A DNA stretch of 34,983 nucleotides, taken from contig JAFVHN010000013.1 of NCBI GenBank assembly GCA_017474515.1, forward strand, positions 1 to 34,983. Direction: 5' to 3'. Shown here piece by piece: positions 5,282 through 33,115 of the stretch. Under the pieces are notes generated by a model. That model had not been told where the DNA came from, did no database searches, and was given only the letters and a program-made list of their open reading frames with translations. This DNA is from Prevotella sp. Lineage in GTDB: Bacteria; Bacteroidota; Bacteroidia; Bacteroidales; Bacteroidaceae. Both the position numbers and the translations under genes were made by a program. Positions within the stretch are counted from its first letter, which is position 1. Every line of letters starts with the position of its first letter.

Positions 5282-5394
5282 TGCTCTCATGTGGCCTTGG
5301 AATTAACGCATGATGACGCTTGCGTGAGGCTTGCGGAAGTCGGTATGTAAAGTTTTTTCAGAAACCGTTGTATATATCAGATAGTATGACGGCA

Positions 5395-5468
5395 ATTTAC
5401 TGGGAGTCAATTGGCGTTTTACTGGGAGTCAATTGGCGTTTTACTGACAGTCAATCCCCAATTTACTG
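5395..5468 (+). repeat. 22-bp tandem repeat, about 3 copies
   Basis: Two exact copies of a 22-bp unit (TTACTGGGAGTCAATTGGCG plus TT) are followed by a diverged third copy (TTACTGACAGTCAATCCCC) and a final TTTACTGC. The repeat is non-coding and lies between a terminator and the next promoter. Confidence 0.85.
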
Positions 5469-5642
5469 CAAGGAATTTGATGTATGCTGATTATCAATGC
5501 GTTAGAAAAACGCTTGAATGATTGTGGAAATGTAAAGTTTCTTTACCATTCTTGTCCCTCTCAGTTTCTTCATTCTTTGACGGCCAACTGGGGATAAAGA
5601 GTTAAATTGTTTGAAATCAGAGCCTGTGTCAAAGATTTTTAC

Positions 5643-8309: not shown

Positions 8310-8520
8310 TTTTGTCAAGATTTTTCATCGTTTTTTAGACTACAAAAGACGTTTTACCGCAAATTTCGGAGAGAGATCTTGAAGATCGAGAGGAGAAATC
8401 TTGAAGATTTCTCCCCGAAATTTGCGGTCAAACCTCTGTCGGTTTTAAACCTGTTGATTATCAATAAGTTACAAAATGACTAAATTTTTGTTGGTTTTGT
8501 CAAATATTTTTACCAATTTT
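8310..8520 (+). repeat. Structured dispersed repeat, copy 1 of 3
   Basis: About 211 bp. It has four parts in order: a left box TTTTGTCAAGATTTTTCAT; a long stem (ACCGCAAATTTCG at 8357-8369 with CGAAATTTGCGGT at 8416-8428) enclosing two purine-rich hairpins whose tips read TCTTGAAGA; the segment TTGATTATCAATAAGTTAC (8454-8472); and a right box TTTTGTCAAATATTTTTACC followed by AATTTT. The same order recurs at 17235-17446 and, inverted, at 28321-28536. It contains no ORF of note. It lies between the convergent ends of the DUF445 gene and the small gene at 8659. Confidence 0.85.
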
Positions 8521-8598
8521 AATCCATTGCCCTATCCACCTTTTTGGCGCAAATAGCGAGCCCCAGAGCCAGGCCGCAACCATTGTTTTGCAAACACA

Positions 8599-13222: not shown

Positions 13223-13295
13223 TGATCCGCTTGGGGTTCGAACCCAAGACCCCATCCTTAAAAGGGATGTGCTCTACCTACTGAGCTAGCGGATC
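13223..13295 (-). tRNA. tRNA-Lys (UUU)
   Basis: A 73-nt tRNA on the minus strand. The acceptor stem pairs GATCCGC with GCGGATC, followed by discriminator A; CCA is not encoded. The D-arm (GCTCAGTAGGTAGAGC), anticodon arm (CATCC-CTTTTAA-GGATG, anticodon TTT) and T-arm (TTGGG-TTCGAAC-CCCAA) are all standard. It has its own two-box promoter at 13338-13369 and a strong terminator, so it is a single-gene unit. No integrated element is seen at its 3' end. Confidence 0.97.
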
Positions 13296-13369: not shown

Positions 13370-13493
13370 TTATTGGGACTTTTTTTTGTTTTTAGCGCGT
13401 TTTGAGGGCTTGAAAGCGGGGAAATGGGGGCTTTGTCGTGGTGGCATCACCACAAACGGGACGCAGGGGCTTAGGTTCTTTGTAGATGCGGGC

Positions 13494-14723
13494 TTAGGTT
13501 TTTGTGGAGGCGGGCGGCGTTTTGTGCATGTGCCAAACATTGATGATTTTTCGGCGGATGGCGGAGTGGTTGAGAATTGACGTAAGGGCGAAAATGATGA
13601 GGCCGGCGGCGATGGCAGGTACCAGCGTGTAGGCCTCGAATTTCGGGTAAAGCTCGCCAAATCTCGGTAAATAATGTTGTCGAGCCAGGGCGCAAAGGGC
13701 CAGCGAAACGACCAGCGCCAGCGTGTTGACCGTGAGCGCCAGGCGGTTGTAGGGCTTTCCCACGGCTTTCGGCGTATAGCCCATGAGCAGCAGGTTGTCG
13801 ATTTTGTCAGTATGCTTTTGCAAAAGCAGGAAGATGCTGAGCAGCAGGACGTAGAACGCCAGCGCCGTGATGACGCCGCCGGTGGTGCCCACCAGTGTGA
13901 TGATGGTTTTCAAGAGGCTGGCCGTGCGAGCCGCGTCGGCATCGGTCGATTCGGTGTCGTAGTTGTTGTCGCTGAGGAACTTGCTGATGTTTTCATCGGC
14001 CGTTTTGTTCACCTCCACGATAATTCTCGAAGGGCTTGTCGATCTGTCGGGCGACAATTCTCTGTTCATCTCGTCCATGAAGTTTTGCGGCACAAGAATG
14101 GTGTTGAGCCTTTTTGAGAAGGCCACCACGTGCCCCTTCATTTCCTTGCGTGCCGCCGTTCCGCTCAGGATGAGATGTATGCCCACCGCCTTGACGAGTC
14201 CTTCGGAAATGGCCGGCAGTCCGCGGCTTCCGGCAAATCCGAAGTTGTAGAGGTTGAGATAGTTGCGCGGAAGAATGATAGGCAGTTCGTCGGAGCCGGG
14301 CTCATATTTCCATTGAGAAAGGTCCACGTCGATGAACTTGTCGGGAATGGCTTCAAAGAACATTTCCGTTGAGAACTCCATGCCCAGCTTCCGGCTCCCT
14401 ATTGTTGCGAAGACGTCAAATTGCGACGGCGTGAAGGGTGCATAGGCCGTTGTAAAGGACTGTCGGCCAATTTCTTCCGTTTCCTCCTGAGAAAACGTCG
14501 GCGCTTTCCCCGTGAGCGAGGTCAGTGTGCTCACGCGCTTGGCAATGATGATTTGCCCCGGCCTCATGAAGCTGTCGCCCTTGGTAAATAGCGGCACCAC
14601 GTCGAAATAGAATTGCACGGCCGTCAAAATGATGGTCATGCCTAAAATGTTGGCGAGGATGAACCCCGCCAACTGTCCTTTTCCGATATTTTGTCTTAAA
14701 AGCTTGTTCGCCAGCTTTTTCAT
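13494..14723 (-). CDS. FtsX-like ABC transporter permease
   Basis: A 409-residue membrane protein. One transmembrane helix lies near the N-terminus (about 17-40), then a large extracytoplasmic domain (about 41-270), then three helices (about 274-302, 329-347 and 364-384). This is the MacB/FtsX permease topology. The cytoplasmic loop 'TDKIDNLLLMGYTPKAVGKPY' resembles the family's coupling segment. No ATPase is adjacent, so its partner must be encoded elsewhere. It is the last gene of a minus-strand run after tdk and the DUF4836 lipoprotein, with only 6 nt between it and the latter, so translation is probably coupled. Substrate is unknown; lipoprotein handling or peptide export are typical roles of the family. 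Confidence 0.75.
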   Translation of the reverse strand: MKKLANKLLRQNIGKGQLAGFILANILGMTIILTAVQFYFDVVPLFTKGDSFMRPGQIIIAKRVSTLTSLTGKAPTFSQEETEEIGRQSFTTAYAPFTPSQFDVFATIGSRKLGMEFSTEMFFEAIPDKFIDVDLSQWKYEPGSDELPIILPRNYLNLYNFGFAGSRGLPAISEGLVKAVGIHLILSGTAARKEMKGHVVAFSKRLNTILVPQNFMDEMNRELSPDRSTSPSRIIVEVNKTADENISKFLSDNNYDTESTDADAARTASLLKTIITLVGTTGGVITALAFYVLLLSIFLLLQKHTDKIDNLLLMGYTPKAVGKPYNRLALTVNTLALVVSLALCALARQHYLPRFGELYPKFEAYTLVPAIAAGLIIFALTSILNHSAIRRKIINVWHMHKTPPASTKT

Positions 14724-17234: not shown

Positions 17235-17446
17235 TTTTGTCAAGATATTTCAAAAAAATTATCCACCTGCCATTGGCTTGACCGCAATTTTCGAGGAGAG
17301 ATTTGGCACTTTGAGAGGAGAGATCTTGAAGTTTGAGAGGCGAAAAATGCGGTCAAACTAAGCGTGATTTTTGAGTGCCTGATTATCAAGTAGTTACAAA
17401 AGCGGCCAATTTTGGCCGCTTTTGTCAAGTTTTTTTACCAATTTCA
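17235..17446 (+). repeat. Structured dispersed repeat, copy 2 of 3
   Basis: About 212 bp with the same order of parts as copy 1: left box TTTTGTCAAGATATTTC; stem GACCGCAATTTTCG (17279-17292) with CGAAAAATGCGGTC (17341-17354); purine-rich GAGGAGAG and GATCTTGAAG units; CTGATTATCAAGTAGTTAC; and right box TTTTGTCAAG then TTTTTTACCAATTT. Relative to copies 1 and 3, one stem pair changed from A-T to T-A on both sides. A neighbouring pair is a mismatch. A local hairpin CGGCCAATTTTGGCCG occupies the variable stretch before the right box. Confidence 0.8.
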
Positions 17447-17460
17447 GAGGGGTGAAAAGG

Positions 17461-19559: not shown

Positions 19560-19656
19560 GTAAACTTTTTTTGATTTTCCTAAGACTTCCAAGGACTTCC
19601 TAGGCTTTCCTAGGACTTCCTATGTCTTCCTAGGCTTTCCTATGTCTTCCTAAAAA
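19560..19656. repeat. Period-10 repeat between the sigma factor gene and rsmI
   Basis: About nine imperfect 10-mers of the form CCTAGGACTT, CCTATGTCTT or CCTAGGCTTT follow one another and end in CCTAAAAAAG. The block fills the divergent intergenic region and stops about 50 nt before the rsmI -33 box. It is unrelated in sequence to the period-10 block at 8012. Confidence 0.85.
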
Positions 19657-24628: not shown

Positions 24629-24802
24629 GGAGTTTGGGAGGATGTTGCGCTACGCTAAATGATAAATGACAAATGACAAAGCATTTTAGTTGTGAGTTTT
24701 GAATTATGAATTATGATTTAATGCGGCAGTTTTTTCACCTTTTCAATTATATAATGGCGGCAGCAAATATTTCACTCTTCACTCTTCACTTTTCACTTTT
24801 AA
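24629..24802 (-). repeat. Heptad-type repeat block, copy 1
   Basis: On the minus strand the block starts inside the last codons of psd with GTGAAAAGTGAAGAGTGAA (7-bp period), then 'TTTGCTGCCGCCATTATA', AAGGTGAAAAAACTGCCGC, ATTCATAATTCA (7-bp period), and ends with TTTGTCATTTGTCATTTATC (7-bp period) and TAGCGTAGCGC. The same order occurs at 32893-33115 in the opposite orientation. It fills the whole psd-pssA gap. Confidence 0.85.
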
Positions 24803-25484
24803 GTCGTGCGATAACCGTTTGGTCGCCCGTAGTGCTTTGTCCCATTTTTACGCATATTTCAGTGCCCAGGGGCAAGTAAACGTCCACCCTTGAGCCGAAC
24901 TTGATGAACCCCAGGTGCTCGTCGATGTAGCAGTCCTCGTCGTCCTTGGCGTAGGTGACGATGCGGCGCGCCACGGCTCCGGCCACCTGCCGGCAAAGAA
25001 TTTCCTGGCCGTCGTCGGTTTCCAGCATGATGTCGGCATGCTCGTTTTCCTCGCTCGCCTTGGGAAGCCATGCTTTGTAGAAATTGCCGTTGAAGTGCTT
25101 CACGAATTTCACCCGCCCGTCCACGGGGAACCAGTTGGCGTGAACGTTGAACAGGCTCATAAAGATGCTCACCATAAGTCGCCGGTCGTGGAAGTAGTTG
25201 GTTTCCTCCACTTCCTCAATCACCACCACGCGGCCGTCGGCCGGTGCCACCACGATGCCCTCGGTGTCGGTGGGGAAATAGCGTATCGGGCAACGGAAAA
25301 AGTTCACCATGATGGCATAGACCACCGCCATGACGGCCGCCAGGCACTTGAACCGGAGCCCGCCGTCGTCGAGGCGCCACGCCAGAAGCCCAACGGCAAG
25401 CATGGCAATGCCGACGTAGAGCAACGTGTTGGACCCTTCACGATGAAGGCGTATGTTTTTTATTTTTTTGATTCTTTGTCCCAT
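24786..25484 (-). CDS. psd: Phosphatidylserine decarboxylase
   Basis: A 232-residue phosphatidylserine decarboxylase of the short (archaeal-type) class, producing phosphatidylethanolamine. It has two hydrophobic helices near the N-terminus (about 20-36 and 45-62), '[14 protein letters not shown]', '[15 protein letters not shown]' and the self-cleavage site 'KFGSRVD' with Ser198, which becomes the pyruvoyl group. Its last residues ('LKSEK') and the TGA stop are encoded by the first heptads of the adjacent repeat block, so the 3' end seems to have been replaced or extended by the repeat. pssA lies downstream in the same direction. Confidence 0.93.
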
Positions 25485-27754: not shown

Positions 27755-27823
27755 CTTTCGTGGAAATTTTCGTTCAGGTGAATTTTTGATTTTTGAACGG
27801 GGTAAAGTTTGTCTGATAGTAGG

Positions 27824-28270
27824 CGACGCTGATAGTAGCCGACGCTTCCAAGCGTCGGACTAACTTTTTTTTACTCCAACGCTTGAAAGCGTCGGCTCCT
27901 GTATCGTCTGGGTATTTTTTATTTACTCCGACGCTCGGAGGCGTCGGCTCCTATTGGCGTCGGTCCCTATTGGCGTCTGTCCCTATAGTATTCGAACTTT
28001 TTTTAGTTACTCCGACGCTTATAGGAGCCGACGCTTCCAAGCGTCGGACTAACTTTTTTTTACTCCAACGCTTGGAAGCGTCGGCTCTTGTATCGTTTGT
28101 TTTTTTATTTACTCCGACGCTCGGAGGCGTCGGCTCCTACCGCGTCGGCTCCTACCGCGTCGGCTCCTACTGCGTCGGCTCCTACCGCGTCGGCTCCTAC
28201 CGCGTCGGCTTCTATAGGCATCGGCTTCTGCTGTCGGCTTTTCCTATTGGCTCCTATGGGCGTCGGCTTT
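27824..28270. repeat. GCGTCGG hairpin repeats and 15-bp tandem array
   Basis: Short hairpins such as CCGACGCTTCCAAGCGTCGG recur at 27839-27858 and 28028-28047, with GACGCTCGGAGGCGTC hairpins between. The block around 27837-27960 is repeated at 28026-28145 with a 189-bp offset. At 28128-28202 five copies of a 15-bp unit (CGTCGGCTCCTACCG) run head to tail, then decay into CGTCGGCTTCTATAG and shorter pieces. Confidence 0.85.
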
Positions 28271-28320
28271 TACTTGATTTTTCATTTGAAAATGCGTGAA
28301 AAGATGGGTAGGATGATGGG

Positions 28321-28536
28321 GTAAAATTGGTAAAAATATTTGACAAAATCGGGTAAAATTGGGTGGTTTTTGTAACGTATTGATAATCAGGTGGTTAAAA
28401 ATGGGTTGGGTTTTGACCGCAAATTTCGGGGAGAAAACTTCAAGATTTCTCCTCTCAATCTTCAAAATCTCTCCTCGAAATTTGCGGTCAAACGTTTTTG
28501 GGGATGTAAAAAACCATGAAAAATTTTGACAAAAGC
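28321..28536 (-). repeat. Structured dispersed repeat, copy 3 of 3 (inverted)
   Basis: Read on the minus strand it matches copy 1 almost throughout: TTTTGTCAAAATTTTTCATG, GTTTTTTA, GACCGCAAATTTCG ... CGAAATTTGCGGTC, two GAGGAGA...TCTTGAAG units, CTGATTATCAATACGTTAC and TTTTGTCAAATATTTTTACC then AATTTT. Length is about 216 bp. The linkers between conserved parts differ from copy 1, while the parts themselves are retained. Confidence 0.88.
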
Positions 28537-28580: not shown

Positions 28581-28629
28581 GTCGGCGGCTATTTTTCTCC
28601 GGCCCTTTGTTCAGGCGAATTTGCTATTT

Positions 28630-28988
28630 GCAGTTCTCCGCTTGTAGGGACATACTTTATGTATGTCCGAAATCAGGCGAATGTGCTGGGGCCGGCGGAC
28701 ATACATAAAGGCGGACATACATAAAGTATGTCCCTACAGTGTGTTTTTTTTCTTTAGCTTCGGCTCCTTTTCTCCGCCTCTCCTTAGAAAACTATTGAAA
28801 ACTATATTTCTCCGCCCCTCTTGTTCATGCGTTTTTCCGCATGTAGGGACATACTTTATGTATGTCCGAAATCAGGCGAATGTGCTGGGGCTGGCGGACA
28901 TACATAAAGGCGGACATACATAAAGCATGTCCCTACAGTGTGGAATTTTGCTTTAGCTTCGTCTCCTTTTCTCCGCCTCTCCTTAGAA
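28630..28988. repeat. 199-bp tandem duplication with GGACATAC inverted repeats (copies 2 and 3)
   Basis: Inverted repeats at 28645-28736 and 28844-28935 share the same spacer (AAATCAGGCGAATGTGCTGG) and the same downstream text (CTTTAGCTTCG, then TCTCCGCCTCTCCTTAGAA). Each right side contains GGACATACATAAAG twice. The offset between copies is 199 bp with few substitutions, so the duplication is recent compared with copy 1. Confidence 0.85.
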
Positions 28989-29139
28989 TACTTCTATAGA
29001 AAAAAAGTTCCTTGGAATAATAGCCCTCCTCTACGAGGAATAGATTATAAATAATGTATAGCCAAAGAGTCGTAAAACGATTTTAGAGTCATTTTCATAT
29101 TTTTCACTTTTCACTTTCCCCCTTTATTGTTTTTCTTTG

Positions 29140-32888: not shown

Positions 32889-32892
32889 TATC

Positions 32893-33115
32893 TTTAAAGT
32901 GAAAAGTGAAGAGTGAAGAGTGAAAAATTTGCTGCCGCCATCATATAATTGATAAGGTGAAAAAGTGAAAAGTGAAGAGTGAAAAATTTGCTGCCGCCAT
33001 CATATAATTGATAAGGTGAAAAAGTGAAAAAACTGCCGCATTAAATCATAATTCATAATTAAATACTCATAATTAAAATACTTTGTCATTTATCATTTAG
33101 CGTAACGTAAACTCC
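32893..33115 (+). repeat. Heptad-type repeat block, copy 2, with internal 59-bp duplication
   Basis: Same order as copy 1 (24629-24802): AAAGTGAAAAGTGAAGAGTG, GAAAAATTTGCTGCCGCCAT, AAGGTGAAAAA, AACTGCCGCATTAAATCATA, ATTCATAATT, TTTGTCATTTATCATTTAGC. A 59-bp segment is present twice (GCTGCCGCCA at 32931 and 32990). It fills most of the dnaE-trxA gap. No trxA promoter box is obvious in it. Confidence 0.85.

Follow-up and report, generated by a model that had tools for sequence, protein, structure and literature searches.

A dispersed intergenic element with near-rigid spacing and 22-bp units in a Prevotella genome

Porphyromonas gingivalis, a member of the Bacteroidales, carries BrickBuilt, the nearest published relative that we found of the element described here. 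The parts of its description used here present BrickBuilt as an intergenic minisatellite/MITE with 23-nt tandem units between a non-repetitive leader and tail, a unit number that varies between strains, 19 copies in ATCC 33277 and IS5-type terminal inverted repeats (PMC4596501). The same parts report 22-nt tandem repeats in P. gingivalis strain W83 (PMC4596501). According to the sections of a second paper drawn on here, IHF, gyrase and Pol I interact with BIMEs, which have been proposed to help organise the chromosome (PMC2817692). In the portion of a third source cited here, plasmid iterons are direct repeats with lengths from 17 to 22 bp (R6K and pPS10 have 22), and moving two iterons apart by half a helical turn abolishes cooperative binding (PMC4980987). 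Titles and abstract openings in the open-licence literature gave no account of our element or of 22-bp arrays in Prevotella.

The window, the whole stretch of DNA analysed here, comprises 34,983 nt of a Prevotella sp. genome (assembly GCA_017474515.1, contig JAFVHN010000013.1, positions 1 to 34,983). It holds four copies of a non-coding element of ~235 bp, built in the order of a box TTTTGTCAA, a long inverted repeat (HP2), a palindrome TTGATNATCAA (HP3), a second box and a tail. The arms of HP2 surround two units that lie 22 bp apart, centre to centre. The features are listed by position, strand and kind.

8310..8542, + strand: copy 1, whole element, profile score 220.6 bits
8310..8328, + strand: copy 1, left box (DR1) TTTTGTCAAGATTTTTCAT, with a sharp left edge
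8351..8433, + strand: copy 1, HP2, enclosing two dyad units spaced 22 bp
8376..8386, + strand: copy 1, core of unit 1, ATCTTGAAGAT
8398..8408, + strand: copy 1, core of unit 2, ATCTTGAAGAT, 22 bp from unit 1
8437..8481, + strand: copy 1, HP3 palindrome, centred on TTGATTATCAA
8495..8520, + strand: copy 1, right box (DR2) TTTTGTCAAATATTTTTACCAATTTT, 185 bp from DR1; the tail runs to ~8542
17235..17447, + strand: copy 2, with a diverged tail, 171.6 bits; Tandem Repeats Finder gives period 22 at 17293-17340
28301..28534, - strand: copy 3, whole element, 215.6 bits; the lower coordinate (~28301) is approximate
5346..5564, + strand: copy 4, divergent, with scaffold and 185-bp pitch kept, 38.4 bits
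5396..5455, + strand: copy 4, array of unit ACTGGGAGTCAATTGGCGTTTT, two identical and one diverged, period 22 by Tandem Repeats Finder

Three of these copies had been reported in an initial annotation made from the letters of the window, and they lie where it put them, starting at 8310 (+), 17235 (+) and 28534 (-). Their likeness is far beyond chance by blastn (copy 1 against copy 3, E 2.4e-58; a query containing copy 2 against copy 3, E 2.7e-30). Its starts agree with ours apart from 28536, which is off by two bases, and its right end falls ~22 bp short. The end boxes are direct repeats, as it held. What it took for two purine-rich hairpins with TCTTGAAGA tips is better described as two dyad units 22 bp apart within one inverted repeat. 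Missing from it were the ~240 copies estimated below, the fourth copy in the window and the connection with arrays of 22-bp units in further species. Copy 4 carries a direct-repeat array in place of HP2, with 22 of 22 matches at lag 22; the module is thus exchangeable, at least once, and the quantum of the exchange is 22 bp. A third period-22 row of the window, found by Tandem Repeats Finder at 13467-13515, overlaps an ORF end. The left edge of the element is sharp: across 110 anchored copies, information rises from ~0.2 bits per column just before TTTTGTCAA to as much as 2.0 after it, where the box columns are forced by the anchor TTTGTnAA and the subsequent AGATTTTTCA columns are not. The tail ends near TATCC(A/G)(C/T)CT, at a right edge that is less clear-cut than the left one; the two edges read TTTTGTCAAG at the left and ...TATCCACCT at the right.

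Other repeats were also seen in the window. Beside copy 3 (27813-28214 and 28629-28992) lie GCGTCGG-rich tandem repeats with units of 15 and 16 bp, and near the same copy a 165-bp direct duplication at 28629/28828 is 93% alike. A 10-bp unit (TTCCTAGGAC) is repeated about 7.6 times at 19576-19655, with higher order of 20 and 30 bp. An inverted pair at 24663-24803 and 32892-33099, with overlapping arms of 83 and 73 nt that are 92-95% alike, contains AAAGTGA-type 7-bp repeats.

In its own genome the element is abundant. A 389-kb sample holds 27 copies, or one per ~14 kb, which corresponds to ~240 in 3.5 Mb. It consists of C94 and C84 in full and of portions of C66 and C25, contigs chosen for their length and already known to carry matches. 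A sequence profile (R1) found at least 150 copies in the same genome, the weakest among the matches listed having an E value of 6.1e-41. Outside it, blastn of the consensus matched none of 23 congeners and gave a single 36-bp match (E 3.2e-4) in 16 more distant genomes. The initial annotation had proposed a search with a structure model; the model built here (R2) was run on 149 other congeners and matched 22 of them weakly (best E 4e-9). The 19 R2 loci inspected are arrays or long hairpins of other sequence, most of them adjoining an HP3-like palindrome, and they look like something else of the same build; in the congener with the best match (L091) the boxes stand 224 bp apart, not 185. The element was not found in phage and plasmid records, and viral contigs were negative with one exact pattern. 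The initial annotation's description of a dispersed non-coding family is borne out. The sole Rfam match at gathering score in the window is a tRNA at 13223-13295. Permissive Rfam searches of five stretches gave matches that were all below gathering score and mostly to generic hairpin (microRNA) models. HP3 taken alone, with two mismatches allowed, occurs at 30 sites in the own genome versus 0 for the control; at least one site is present in 107 of 296 other genomes, with no more than 10 in any of them. HP3 was accordingly rejected as a phylum-wide marker. Among the stretches with exact HP3-like palindromes (L136-L191), 34 of 56 come from one Microscillaceae MAG (Prado074), some of them paired (L142, L145); this is a separate expansion of a similar palindrome outside the Bacteroidales.

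The copies are diverged in sequence and nearly fixed in length. Among 110 of the 122 flanked copies, pairwise identity has a mean of 0.685 and a maximum of 0.898, with a median of 0.80 to the nearest neighbour; since no pair exceeds 0.898, no fresh copies are seen. Conservation is concentrated in 85 of 235 columns that carry at least 1.5 bits, and the linkers are randomised: in the 24 least informative columns, chosen as such, pairwise identity is at chance (0.309 vs 0.299 expected). Of 105 copies (from the same 122; here as in the set of 110, those left out have no recognisable box), 69 have their boxes 185 bp apart and 32 have them 186 bp apart, with the rest at 174, 184, 187 and 198; the HP3 centre stands at 144 from the left box in 101 of the 105. 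HP2 and HP3 columns are gapless in the 31 rows of alignment A2 and in the 75 rows of A4, which were pre-filtered to a segment length of 150-170 bases and consist of 74 of 75 held-out copies passing the filters and one training-set reference row. A bare rule (TGTnAA, then TGTnAA at 185 or 186, with TGAnnnTCA before the second) picks out 112 places in the own-genome DNA examined and 0 at eight control spacings. In L018, L029 and several A4 rows HP2 has its inner loop flipped with respect to the boxes, as though its arms had recombined.

Debris of the element was also absent from the DNA examined. All but one of 125 profile matches span more than 190 of the 235 model positions, and the remaining one is cut by a stretch border. 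All 27 copies of the 389-kb sample run from model position 3 or lower to 206 or higher (one split by a stretch border); the other own-genome stretches were selected around full-length matches, which disfavours partial copies. Free sequence, near-frozen length and no debris are hard to obtain from a decaying transposon and easy to obtain from a rigid complex. For 13 of 110 copies the nearest neighbour is on the same contig, versus 2.6 expected (0 of 2000 permutations), which raises the possibility that copying is in part local; on average, same-contig pairs are not more alike (0.681 vs 0.685).

The surroundings of the copies were examined with gene calls from an in-house ORF caller, the intergenic background being taken from stretches chosen around copies. 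None of 114 placed copies lies inside an ORF, with an overlap of up to 80 bp tolerated; 11 further copies are at stretch ends. Placed copies lie between co-directional (46), divergent (45) and convergent (23) genes. In a first sample of 25 placed copies there had seemed to be a bias to the promoter side, and 10 of the 12 tandem copies pointed the same way as the genes. A promoter element was rejected on the 114 copies, of which 28 are co-oriented and 18 opposed and which occupy all three intergenic kinds. For 60 of the 91 available genes that start beside copies, 93 Pfam families were recorded; a functional regulon was rejected, as no family occurs in more than two of the 60 proteins. No transposase or integrase family is present among these 60 genes (50 with a Pfam family, 10 without). 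In a single case, a copy lies upstream of a gene for DNA gyrase/topoisomerase IV subunit A (L218:9299-11944).

Related species carry 22-bp arrays built of other units. In 200 kb of one congener (G138), 34 clusters of another unit are present and 49 of 62 same-strand neighbours are exactly 22 apart; many of these clusters are adjoined, by eye, by HP3-like palindromes at a similar distance. Across 20 congeners, sampled at 20 kb each (bases 20001-40000 of contigs known from earlier matches; the G069 stretch holds an R2 match elsewhere), period 22, 44 or 66 was best in 18 of 42 tandem-repeat clusters, 12 of the 20 genomes had such a cluster and no other period exceeded three clusters. In 20 stretches from other genera (279 kb), these periods account for 3 of 10 clusters, all in two genomes of the same family, and for 0 of 7 clusters in the 18 stretches from other families. 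A stricter scan of larger samples speaks against this: period 22 came first in one 200-kb part of G138, but it ranked second in another part of G138 (after 41), in G091 (after 44) and in the own genome (after 14). In the second 200 kb of G138 (L252-L261), period 41 is slightly commoner than 22 (13 vs 11 clusters).

Unit sequences differ between most species. In G044 alone, the 22-bp units fall into three or more unrelated families, so that no single sequence-specific protein can recognise every one. Over 42 units, some of them non-independent, dyad symmetry averages 5.74 of 8 vs 4.89 when shuffled; 9 of the 42, including those of G138 and P. brunnea, fall below their own shuffled mean. Prevotella corporis and P. 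brunnea are among the named relatives that bear arrays, and over 395 bp G093 shares 80.5% identity with a locus of Hallella mizrahii. The P. brunnea stretches (L242, L244-L249) have arrays in which AAAAAGTACTATCGTTTT units recur every 22 bp, and several of these sit close to the end of a contig; the same sequence adjoins the array in L242 and L248, and some arrays are near IS-like sequence. In a loose comparison of tdk-locus orthologues, two congeners have arrays with other units and several have short spacers.

Arrays are kept at some orthologous sites of sister species. Two such genomes, G044 and G060, are colinear over ~62 kb with aligned pieces 68-87% identical, and this block contains six arrays, two shared and four in one species only; the count leaves out one further G060 array at the very edge of the block. 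Some sites are thus retained and others turn over. The first shared array has three units in G060 and one in G044 and retains HP3, whose centre reads TTGAAAACCAA in G060 and CTGGAAACCAG in G044, making the outer pair T-A in the former and C-G in the latter. At the second shared site, both species have arrays, whose units (for example GCGAAAGGGCATCAATGGGAAT for G044, GCGAAAGGTCATCTTTCGGAGT for G060) are more alike within than between species, the G060 units being mixed; we infer from position that the two arrays are homologous. None of the four single-species arrays faces a clean empty site in the other sister species.

One can ask whether the element acts as RNA. A structured RNA family (regulatory RNAs come first among the options of the initial annotation) or intrinsic terminators formed by the long HP2 hairpin would account for the strong folding of HP2 and for its covariation in A4, which is mostly held-out copies: 116 cells have both sides changed, against 73 +/- 10 when shuffled and 10-42 when slid, and cells and score are above all 500 shuffles. 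The counts of double-changed pairs and pair types argue otherwise, since 476 and 303 of 500 shuffles, respectively, are at least as high. Much of the HP2 signal comes from two dyad-symmetric unit subtypes, ATCTTGAAGAT and ATTTGGCAAAT; dyad units would also yield such covariation, and dyad protein sites on double-stranded DNA fit at least as well as an RNA stem. HP3 has double changes in 10 of 20 pairs in the first 31 copies, RNAalifold on these copies reduces it to a 3-pair core and gives a covariation term of only -0.27, and its held-out pairing is marginal (63.7 vs 62.0% paired, 2 of 500 shuffles). To this are added rigid linkers, a consensus with no T-run directly after HP2, the 45 of 114 copies between divergent genes and the lack of any Rfam family at gathering score for the element in the window. 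A regulatory RNA is disfavoured by the marginal HP3 covariation, the rigid spacing, the occurrence in all intergenic kinds and neighbours of no common function, and we consider RNA or terminator function very unlikely. The main alternative is mobility. A non-autonomous MITE- or REPIN-like element, moved by a putative trans-acting transposase or recombinase that requires boxes, hairpin and HP3 at fixed distance, would explain the high copy number, the sharp left edge and the 0 of 23 congeners matched by blastn; arrays that one sister species has and the other lacks, the occurrence of similar copies on one contig and the flipped inner loop of HP2 in some copies point the same way, and in P. brunnea (L248) a Transposase_mut ORF lies ~0.9 kb from a 22-bp array. 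Target-site duplications were not seen, the best-scoring offset reaching 4 of 105 at k=4, although one at another offset could be missed, since the right end is defined less clearly than the left one. Direct end boxes also count against mobility, and on their account the initial annotation held that the element does not look like a standard MITE. The DNA examined shows no truncated copies, no pair exceeds 0.898 identity, no transposase family occurs among the 60 adjacent genes (10 of which have no Pfam family), and Y1 transposase is absent from the array-bearing genomes G091, G003 and G042. We regard a mobile element as rather unlikely on balance.

It is also conceivable that the 22-bp period is a by-product of replication or repair that duplicates two-turn segments, with the arrays being neutral minisatellites and the own-genome element an amplified fossil. 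The independence of the period from sequence, the coexistence of several families, array edges that decay by eye and units more alike within a locus than with the sister species are all consistent with this. Such a process leaves unexplained the invariant boxes and HP3 at near-frozen pitch in ~105 copies, as well as the HP3 that adjoins arrays in several species, and we judge it improbable. Taken together, RAYT/REP, a TSD-making MITE, a terminator and a structured RNA fit less well than a rigid, iteron-like assembly site for a putative DNA-binding protein, which is our best reading and one that we hold tentatively. Counting against it are the turnover of arrays between the sister species, the three or more unit families of G044, the mixed leading periods of the stricter scan, the 9 of 42 units with symmetry below their shuffled mean, the 224-bp box distance of L091 and the excess of nearest neighbours on one contig. 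The initial annotation had named a REP-like element and a nucleoid site among its options, and its interpretation is supported in part.

As an assembly site, the element would offer fixed-geometry DNA on which one or more putative host DNA-binding proteins assemble. The 22-bp units, at about two turns, would be bound in the manner of iterons, all on the same face of the helix and arranged head to tail or inverted, and HP3 and the two boxes would recruit additional subunits or partners at set distances. Between genes, hundreds of these complexes would serve the whole chromosome as domain boundaries, supercoiling sinks or nucleoid anchors, a role like the one proposed for BIMEs. We infer protein binding, one kind of protein across species and the chromosomal role. 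A broader proposal, which we find possible but doubtful, is that Prevotella and near relatives share a class of site in which unit length (22 bp) and scaffold geometry are selected and unit sequence is free, both within and between genomes. If so, the assembly protein would read helical phase and symmetry rather than sequence, and each chromosome would carry hundreds of regular nucleoprotein complexes. A protein-bound element would be a major unstudied chromosome organiser in common gut and rumen bacteria; a mobile one would be a family without known ends or enzyme. Under either reading, a sequence-independent 22-bp period in one bacterial family demands explanation.

Set beside BrickBuilt as the cited parts of its description portray it, the element shares an intergenic location and tandem units (of 23 nt in BrickBuilt). 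It differs in its direct boxes, its 22-nt unit, its ~240 copies, its near-fixed 185-bp scaffold and HP3, and in that congeners carry unrelated unit families. An IS5-like terminal inverted repeat such as GAGACCTTTGCA, given for BrickBuilt in those parts, is not present at the element edges TTTTGTCAAG and ...TATCCACCT, and MITE terminal inverted repeats in general are not present, the end boxes being direct and HP2 and HP3 internal. REP/BIME sequences, as the cited sections characterise them, resemble it in having more than 100 extragenic palindromic copies, species-specific sequences, both orientations and hybrid arrays (PMC2817692); the 22-bp period and near-fixed pitch set our element apart. 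RAYT/REPIN was rejected as a general mover, since G091, G003 and G042, each 99% complete and each bearing arrays, lack PF01797. A single weak PF01797 match (C24:23184) is present in the own genome, and the rejection does not extend to the own-genome family alone. From plasmid iterons, within the account cited above, the element differs in being chromosomal, in its hundreds of sites and in its many inverted units. The likeness to iterons lies in the spacing, for here too the tandem units stand about two helical turns apart.
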